A DNA stretch of 43,098 nt from a bacterium (lineage in GTDB: Bacteria; Patescibacteriota; Doudnabacteria; UBA920; VMFF01): the NCBI GenBank assembly GCA_027348385.1, contig DAIEPO010000003.1, positions 1 to 43,098 on the forward strand, read 5' to 3'. The position numbers and the translations under genes are program-made. Within the stretch, counting starts at the first letter, position 1. The number at the start of each line of letters is the position of its first letter. Below, one piece after another: positions 817 to 21,669 of the stretch. The notes under the pieces were generated by a model, which saw nothing but the letters and a program-made list of their open reading frames with translations, did no database searches and was not told the DNA's origin.

Positions 817-1749
817 ATGAATGAAATTTTAAATACAGTCATAATTGGTTCTGGACCAGCAGGGCTTACAGCTGCAATCTATGCCTCTCGTGCTGAGCTA
901 AAACCTCTAGTTATAGCAGGGTTAAACCCAGGCGGACAGCTTATGCAAACAACTGAGATAGAGAACTACCCAGGTTTTGAAAACGGAATCATGGGGCCTG
1001 AGTTAATGCAAACCATGATTAGACAAGCTGAGAAGTTTGGAAGCAAGGTAATCTACGAAACAGTTGAAAGCATTGATTTCAAAGAACAACCATTCAAAGT
1101 TAAAACTGACAAAGCAGAATACCTAACAAAAACCGTTATCATTGCAATGGGTGCTGATGCTAACTGGTTAAATCTTCCTAACGAACAAAGACTCAGAGGC
1201 AAAGGCGTTTCAGCTTGTGCTACCTGCGATGGTTTCTTCTTCAAAAACAAAGAAGTCGCGGTTGTCGGAGGGGGCGATGCTGCTATGGAAGAGGCTAACT
1301 ATCTAACAAAGTTTGCCAACAAAGTAACAGTAATACATAGAAGCGATGAGTTTAGAGCATCAAAAATCATGCTAGCAAGAGCTCAAAGCAATCCAAAGAT
1401 TTCCTTCATCACCAATTCCTCGGTTATAGATGTCCTCGGAACAGATCATGTAGAAGGAGTTAAATTAAAGGATACCAAAACTGGTGCAGAAACAGATTTT
1501 AAAACCGACGGGGTATTCCTAGCGATCGGACATACCCCTAATACAAAGATTTTAGGTGGACAAATAGAGTTAGATGAAAAAAAATACGTTCTTGTAAAGA
1601 ACAACACCAGAACAAACATTGAAGGAGTCTTTGTAGCAGGGGACATCTCAGACCCAAGATACAGACAAGCAGTTTCTGCAGCAGGCGTTGGCGCTATGGC
1701 AGCACTAGATGTAGAGAAATATCTTGCTGAAAAAGAACTTAAGGAATAA
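817..1749 (+). CDS. trxB: Thioredoxin-disulfide reductase
   Basis: GSGPAGLTAAIYASRA, CATCDG redox motif, GGGDAAMEEA; start at ATG 817 preferred over 757. Confidence 0.96.
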   Translation: MNEILNTVIIGSGPAGLTAAIYASRAELKPLVIAGLNPGGQLMQTTEIENYPGFENGIMGPELMQTMIRQAEKFGSKVIYETVESIDFKEQPFKVKTDKAEYLTKTVIIAMGADANWLNLPNEQRLRGKGVSACATCDGFFFKNKEVAVVGGGDAAMEEANYLTKFANKVTVIHRSDEFRASKIMLARAQSNPKISFITNSSVIDVLGTDHVEGVKLKDTKTGAETDFKTDGVFLAIGHTPNTKILGGQIELDEKKYVLVKNNTRTNIEGVFVAGDISDPRYRQAVSAAGVGAMAALDVEKYLAEKELKE

Positions 1750-1751
1750 AT

Positions 1752-1777
1752 AAAGACCCTGGAATTCCAGGGTCTTT
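1752..1777. terminator. Bidirectional Rho-independent terminator AAAGACCCTGG-AATT-CCAGGGTCTTT
   Basis: Perfect inverted repeat with A/T tracts on both sides; serves trxB (+) and small RNA A (-). Confidence 0.85.
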
Positions 1778-1804
1778 AATACGGGAACAGTGCTTTATTC
1801 GACA
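1752..1804 (-). ncRNA. Candidate small RNA A, 5' end antisense to the anticodon arm of the tRNA-like RNA at 1844-1914
   Basis: Minus-strand promoter TTGACA (1832-1837)-16-TAAAAT (1810-1815) predicts a TSS near 1803; 5' UGUCGAAUAAAGC; ends in terminator 1752-1777. Confidence 0.55.
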
Positions 1805-1809
1805 CTCGT

Positions 1810-1837
1810 ATTTTAACAAAGTATGATTACTTGTCAA
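1810..1837 (-). promoter_or_regulatory. Promoter for small RNA A (TTGACA-16-TAAAAT)
   Basis: Direct match to sigma70-type hexamers. Confidence 0.6.
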
Positions 1838-1843
1838 AATTGA

Positions 1844-1914
1844 TGGTGGAGGTGACCGGATTTGCACCGGCATCGCTTAATGTCGAATAAAGCTTAGGAA
1901 CTATTCCCACCCCC
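1844..1914 (-). ncRNA. tRNA-like RNA L1 (71 nt, encoded CCA, degenerate D-arm, unusual T-loop)
   Basis: GGGGGTG...CACCTCC-A-CCA acceptor (one G.U), T-arm GCCGG-TGCAAAT-CCGGT, anticodon-like arm CTTTA-TTCGACA-TTAAG (one mismatch), D region GGAATAGTTCC. Confidence 0.6.
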
Positions 1915-1975
1915 ACTTAATGATATATACTCAAAATTTATTAAATAATCATTAGAAATATATTAAGACATAATT

Positions 1976-3806: not shown

Positions 3807-3986
3807 GATGATCAAATTCCTTTCTCATCATCATCCGAAACTAATTGTTCGGACGAATATTAATATTGATTTGTAAGAGGAGTATACCAAAAACCCGCTA
3901 TTTTTGCAAGACCCTAAAGAAGCCTTAACTTAGTCCTACTATGTATACTCCAGAAGCATTAAATCTTCGTTAAATATATATTAAAC

Positions 3987-21397: not shown

Positions 21398-21421
21398 CAA
21401 AACCCCGCTTACGCGGGGTTT
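21398..21421. terminator. Terminator AAAACCCCGC-TTAC-GCGGGGTTTT
   Basis: Serves uvrA (+) and small RNA C (-). Confidence 0.85.
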
Positions 21422-21455
21422 TTGATCGGTTGACTTTGAGCCACCGTTTCACCAG
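21398..21455 (-). ncRNA. Candidate small RNA C, 5' end antisense to the anticodon arm of the tRNA-like RNA at 21495-21567
   Basis: Promoter TTGACT-17-TAAATT predicts a TSS near 21455; 5' CUGGUGAAACGGUG; ends in terminator. Confidence 0.6.
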
Positions 21456-21461
21456 TAAATT

Positions 21462-21490
21462 TAATTTAGCTCAAATGCTTTAAAGAGTCA
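21462..21490 (-). promoter_or_regulatory. Promoter for small RNA C (TTGACT-17-TAAATT)
   Basis: -35 revcomp at 21485-21490, -10 revcomp at 21462-21467. Confidence 0.65.
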
Positions 21491-21494
21491 ACCT

Positions 21495-21567
21495 GTGGTG
21501 GAGATGGCGGGAATCGAACCCGCTAGATGCCGCTGGTGAAACGGTGATCTCGCTACCAAGCCACCCC
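21495..21567 (-). ncRNA. tRNA-like RNA L2 (73 nt, encoded CCA, reduced D-arm)
   Basis: GGGGGTG...CATCTCC-A-CCA acceptor (two G.U), T-arm GCGGG-TTCGATT-CCCGC, anticodon-like arm ACCGT-TTCACCA-GCGGC. Confidence 0.65.
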
Positions 21568-21642
21568 CATATTTGTTTCTCTACTAGTTAATACTCTAAG
21601 TTGATTAACTAATCGTTAAAAAGATATTAAAAAAAGGTGTAT

Positions 21643-21669
21643 TTAGCACTTGACAGGCTTGAGTGCTAA
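21643..21669 (+). promoter_or_regulatory. CIRCE element (HrcA operator) 1
   Basis: TTAGCACTT-N9-GAGTGCTAA, one mismatch to consensus; overlaps the -35 TTGACA (21650-21655) of TTGACA-18-TAAAAT. Confidence 0.9.

Follow-up and report, generated by a model that had tools for sequence, protein, structure and literature searches.

A family of alanine-type tRNA-like RNAs accompanied by covarying antisense RNAs in Doudnabacteria and related Patescibacteria

Architecture of the locus between uvrA and hrcA

The stretch analysed here (the window) comprises 43,098 nt of contig DAIEPO010000003.1 from a bacterium of the lineage Patescibacteriota, Doudnabacteria, whose genome assembly (GCA_027348385.1, hereafter G000) measures 0.555 Mb and is 89% complete. 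Among named genomes, the UvrA closest to its own belongs to Candidatus Doudnabacteria (77% identity). At positions 21398-21618 of its minus strand, referred to as locus 2, a tRNA-like RNA (TLR) of alanine type is followed by the promoter and gene of a short RNA, RNA C, which is antisense to the TLR. The features of locus 2, in the direction of transcription, are as follows:

21592..21618 (-): putative box for an activator or response regulator at the TLR promoter, TTAAY twice at a distance of 11 bp and then GAGTATTAA
21496..21568 (-): TLR of alanine type, 73 nt, with an acceptor of 7 bp that contains G3:U70, a reduced D region, an extended anticodon-like arm, an intact T arm, A73 and an encoded CCA
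21548..21561 (-): D region, reduced (GCTTGGTAGCGAGA), which provides the TLR side of helix B
21533..21547 (-): antisense target, the 5' strand of the arm plus the 9-nt loop (TCACCGTTTCACCAG; loop core UUCACCA), forming helix A
21463..21491 (-): promoter of the antisense RNA, TTGACT-17-TAAATT
21398..21455 (-): RNA C, the antisense RNA, about 58 nt with predicted ends
21441-21455 (-): antisense segment of RNA C
21422-21399 (-): terminator hairpin of RNA C, AAAACCCCGCGTAAGCGGGGTTTT

All 15 pairs of helix A are formed at locus 2. The original prediction, made from the sequence of the window, had described a 14-nt perfect complement between the short RNA and the anticodon-like arm; the match is there, between CACCGTTTCACCAG at 21546-21533 and CTGGTGAAACGGTG at 21455-21442, although its coordinates had been off by one base. 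A match of 14 nt was obtained by chance in only 2 of 4000 random 73-mer/58-mer pairs taken with similar spacing from the same window. Not recognised in the prediction were G3:U70, the likeness of the 3' half to tmRNA, the extension of the arm and its U-turn-type loop, and, upstream of the TLR, the activator-like box.

Recurrence, covariation and cognate specificity

Copies were collected with a pattern search and then with a covariance model (R1) of the duplex form, covering the antisense helix, T arm and promoter, and were accepted by a script plus inspection by eye. A total of 31 modules were accepted in 10 genomes of the order, two of them in the window: nine in G001, six in G000, three each in G002, G018, G047 and G020, and a single module each in G022, G032, G042 and G037. 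The shared layout consists of a TLR of 70-76 nt, a sigma-70-type promoter directly 3' of it, an antisense RNA and a terminator. The first 15 nt or so of the antisense RNA are the complement of the anticodon-like loop plus the arm's 5' strand, and its 3' part often pairs with the D region.

In the 31-sequence alignment (A3), 93% of the helix A cells are paired and 13 of the 15 pairs vary on both sides, counts that lean on manual helix placement, since N was inserted manually in alignments A1, A3 and A4 to hold the register and the G037 row was placed by eye. The covariation score of the whole structure is 0.76 against 0.20 for shuffled alignments, none of 500 shuffles reaching the observed score; with the partner slid by 1-3 columns it is 0.10-0.15, and 39-50% of the cells of these slid controls are paired. 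Helix B, the pairing of the antisense RNA with the D region, had been called weak, which is right for the locus 2 copy; family-wide, however, it is significant (0 of 20,000 permutations as good). The internal pairing of the TLR arm is also significant by permutation, with 58% of its cells paired in the rigid register of A4, a low value that partly reflects register slip, and the antisense match therefore looks better kept than the mimic's own arm.

The cognate ranking is independent of the multiple alignment. The mean duplex energy was -30.5 kcal/mol for cognate and -15.6 kcal/mol for non-cognate combinations; 26 of 29 antisense RNAs ranked their own TLR first and three ranked it second, the top-ranked TLR being probably an orthologue in at least two of these three. 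Orthologues change in concert, as seen in UCACCGUUUCACCAG/CUGGUGAAACGGUGG versus UGACCGUCUUACCAG/CUGGUGAGACGGUUG, each with 15/15 pairs. At the sequence level, ranking and covariation reveal two RNA partners that pair specifically, as an RNA-RNA toxin/antitoxin would, and covariation strongly supports that the antisense RNA acts on the TLR. Because the same layout recurs with different sequences and covarying complementarity in 31 modules, the observation at locus 2 is freed of doubt, and the predicted tRNA mimic with an antisense RNA of its own is borne out; the case that was named as its refutation, loss of complementarity with retention of the TLR, was not observed.

The distribution of the modules is patchy, with 0 to 9 copies per genome. 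In a survey of the phylum with model R2, 13 of 384 Patescibacteria genomes gave a match at E <= 1e-7, and six of these lie outside the order, five of which have the antisense match and G3:U70 on inspection. When relatives were searched with the 221-bp region, a copy with 81% identity was obtained from a sister species, where it too lies between uvrA and hrcA, together with a second, different copy of the same layout, and in another sister species the uvrA-hrcA position holds no module. In G001 (L194, 4003-5371) a small gene is flanked by two related modules where G000 has one, which suggests recombination between copies.

Three antisense units of the genus lack an intact TLR upstream (G001:C42:9452, G000:C22:8287 and G002:C31:2497, the last carrying half a TLR), and these orphans (L293, L292, L291) keep promoter and terminator; they were sought with the pattern of one subfamily only. 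No lone TLR was found among the checked matches of a TLR-only model in six genomes, lower-scoring matches having been partly examined, and the examined matches outside modules are called as ordinary tRNAs. The presence of orphan antisense RNAs, yet of no lone TLR, fits an antidote role. At L195 (3564-3978), two tandem modules are followed by an orphan antisense unit.

The second module of the window (1745-1954, minus strand), locus 1, is complete, having an arm that differs from that of locus 2 and an antisense RNA that matches its own TLR (14/15 pairs), and sits between EF-P and thioredoxin-reductase-like genes:

1928..1954 (-): TTAAY box
1844..1914 (-): TLR with G3:U70, loop core UUCGACA, CCA encoded
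1837-1832 (-): promoter TTGACA, upstream of the antisense RNA
1745..1805 (-): antisense RNA (GTGTCGAATAAAGC...), predicted ends

The modules have no common neighbour or partner gene; their immediate neighbours are unrelated, mostly housekeeping or core genes, and include rpoC, parB, pnp, uvrA, uvrD, typA and sortases, so a partner protein was rejected. A viral or plasmid origin was also rejected: a pattern scan of IMG/VR gave five contigs, none of which passed the antisense check, and phage and plasmid blast searches gave short matches only, mostly to the tmRNA-type 3' end. Ahead of hrcA-grpE-dnaK, a CIRCE-like inverted repeat (TTAGCACTC-N9-AGTGCTAA) was noted at window 21643-21669.

Alanine features, relation to tmRNA, and promoters

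Of the 31 TLRs of the order, 29 retain G3:U70, the pair known to confer alanine identity on tRNA and tmRNA. The alanylation of tmRNA has been described (PMC3022190). ARAGORN called no tRNA on the locus 2 TLR, nor on the TLRs at L001, L006, L009, L010 and L030, and no Rfam family, RF00005 (tRNA) included, reached its threshold at the TLRs of the window, in agreement with the earlier view that the TLR is something other than an ordinary decoding tRNA. If the loop is in canonical register, the position equivalent to 37 is C in all 31 aligned modules, where a decoding tRNA would have a purine. The extended arm is capped by a U-turn-type loop with the core YUYRNCA in 27 of 31 TLRs, which includes YUNR, a motif familiar from loops targeted by antisense RNAs (PMC6562991).

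The best subthreshold Rfam match of the TLR 3' half is tmRNA; RF00023 scores 38.7 of 47 bits, below the gathering score, with the TLR spanning 73 nt only. Like tmRNA, the locus 2 TLR has G3:U70, the T arm and a CCA-type 3' end, and the acceptor of a same-genus tmRNA (GGGGATG/CATCTCC) is identical to that of two TLRs. Since G000 has an SmpB gene and its sister genomes a full tmRNA, the TLR probably does not serve as the tmRNA of the cell, although that of G000 itself was not found in its incomplete assembly. A split or permuted tmRNA was rejected as well: both acceptor halves lie in one short RNA, reading through the copies brought up no conserved tag frame, the permuted model matches with only 22.5 of 47 bits, and the tmRNA of the sister genomes is normal. 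No reading frame was noticed in the structured TLR, reading frames not having been systematically sought. A coding function of RNA C, several copies of which start with NUG, was rejected, the peptides not being conserved on reading the copies.

The antisense promoter carries TTGAC in 28 of 31 modules, and 27 of the 31 have a -10 box with four or more of six matches, compared with 22% in shuffles, the -10 being weaker in four copies; the antisense segment starts 4-10 nt past the best -10 box. The TTAAY double box, with its repeats 11 bp apart, gave 10, 15 and 4 matches in three genomes of the genus, mostly ahead of TLRs, compared with 0-1 for the reversed pattern. It also precedes rpsF-ssb-rpsR and rpmF as well as a PLD-like gene, all recognised by their first codons or by their neighbours. 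The box looks like an OmpR-family site and might be linked to the one OmpR-type regulator that G000 encodes. In the window, a double box lies at 3946-3972 (-), upstream of the rpsF-ssb-rpsR region, as in sister genomes. At L247 and L250 the box stands ahead of an L32-like gene, downstream of which comes another promoter, TTGACA; the two promoters are spaced much as in a module, but no TLR is present. In G047, which belongs to another family, GTTAT-type direct repeats about 11 bp apart occur upstream of TLRs (L202, 3466; L206, 3048), as if a related regulator site had been kept with a different sequence.

Candidate function and comparison with known systems

We consider it an even chance that locus 2, one copy of a dispersed two-gene RNA unit, works as an RNA-RNA antagonist pair, similar to a toxin/antitoxin, in which the antisense RNA neutralises an alanine-chargeable mimic. 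The first gene would give a tRNA mimic of alanine identity, marked by G3:U70, A73, the T arm and usually CCA; this mimic would undergo tRNA-like trimming, receive alanine from AlaRS and associate with EF-Tu. The second, from its own promoter directly behind the TLR 3' end, would give a short RNA whose 5' end is complementary to the loop; it may nucleate there, invade the 5' strand of the arm to form helix A, in many cases also pair with the D region as helix B, and in this way unfold the mimic. Free Ala-TLR would most likely interfere with translation or trans-translation, and toxicity of the TLR is our best guess. We infer both transcripts, the charging and the neutralisation in the cell.

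The toxin/antitoxin reading gains plausibility from cognate-specific pairing, from the patchy distribution and from the finding of three orphan antisense RNAs but of no lone TLR. Several observations weigh against it: two species of the genus retain orthologous copies at identical sites, the promoter box of the genus's TLRs also stands before ribosomal protein operons, orphans are few, and the encoded CCA is missing in a few copies and G3:U70 in two. Same-site retention and the shared ribosomal box fit a regulated RNA of benefit to the cell no less than an addiction module. The original prediction as a whole is thus partly supported, its mimic with a covarying antisense RNA standing and its toxin/antitoxin part being plausible but unproven.

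The best surviving alternative, which we regard as rather unlikely, is that the TLR does useful work under regulation, carrying alanine or modulating ribosome rescue like the tRNA-like domain of a tmRNA without the mRNA part, and that the antisense RNA sets only an off-threshold for it. G3:U70 and the tmRNA-like 3' half, SmpB and tmRNA in the sister genomes, the TTAAY box in common with rpsF-ssb-rpsR and rpmF, and the same-site copies of two species agree with such a role, whereas the sporadic occurrence at the strict cut-off of the phylum survey, the widely varying copy number, the orphan antisense genes and the strict pair specificity do not. It is improbable that the antisense RNA is a working small RNA with mRNA targets and the TLR its sponge. 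Although tRNA-linked sponges such as 3'ETS-leuZ are known and a separate promoter drives the antisense RNA, the antisense segment varies freely from copy to copy with compensation in the TLR, much of the antisense RNA ahead of the terminator can pair with the TLR, and a sponge needs neither G3:U70 nor a T arm. Slightly less probable again is one long transcript without a separate antisense RNA, the complement forming a cis hairpin that misfolds the TLR or acts in processing. No terminator was seen between the two parts, which share a single one, but the TTGAC and -10 boxes are conserved, the antisense segment beginning 4-10 nt behind the -10, and orphan antisense units retain promoter and terminator. 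A decayed tRNA or tmRNA gene beside a chance inverted match, to which the tmRNA-like 3' half might point, is refuted by the covariation and opposed by recurrence across families.

Likenesses to known systems are partial. SdsR/RyeA, a type VIII RNA-RNA toxin/antitoxin (PMC6610125), also consists of two small RNAs, one antagonising the other, but these are mutually cis-encoded and SdsR represses an mRNA (yhcB), whereas the TLR unit has tandem genes on one strand and a tRNA mimic as target. In hok/Sok-like type I systems (PMC6562991) the antisense RNA is likewise aimed at a U-turn-type loop (YUNR, here within YUYRNCA), that of a toxin mRNA instead of a tRNA-like RNA. The tRNA-like domain of tmRNA (PMC3022190) shares with the TLR a reduced D arm, G3:U70, T arm, CCA and an extended helix replacing the anticodon stem; the TLR differs in having a separate antisense RNA and neither tag reading frame nor pseudoknots, and full tmRNA exists besides it in sister genomes. 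CreTA (PMC8501985) resembles the proposed unit in combining a small RNA toxin that acts on the tRNA pool with an RNA antidote, but CreA guides Cascade to repress CreT transcription and is not antisense to a tRNA mimic. The pseudo-tRNA tRNA-Other of Bacillus cereus (PMC3399842) is a tRNA-like element outside translation, at a single locus and proposed to belong to a larger regulatory RNA; its abstract reports no dedicated antisense gene.

Antisense-controlled alanine-type tRNA mimics are a real family, and as far as we found an undescribed one, no description of such a TLR/antisense system having been found in the open-access literature (subscription papers were outside the scope). That they constitute a new RNA-RNA toxin/antitoxin class, with an alanine-charged tRNA/tmRNA mimic as toxin, a dedicated antisense RNA unfolding its anticodon-like arm as antitoxin, and several mutually insulated pairs in genomes of about 0.6 Mb, is a tentative proposal, somewhat short of an even chance. 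If true, this would be the first family known to us in which tRNA mimics have dedicated antisense genes, found in the large and mostly uncultured Patescibacteria; it would connect alanine charging in a testable way with the translation machinery and with antisense control, and its naturally insulated RNA-RNA pairs would form a set ready for use.
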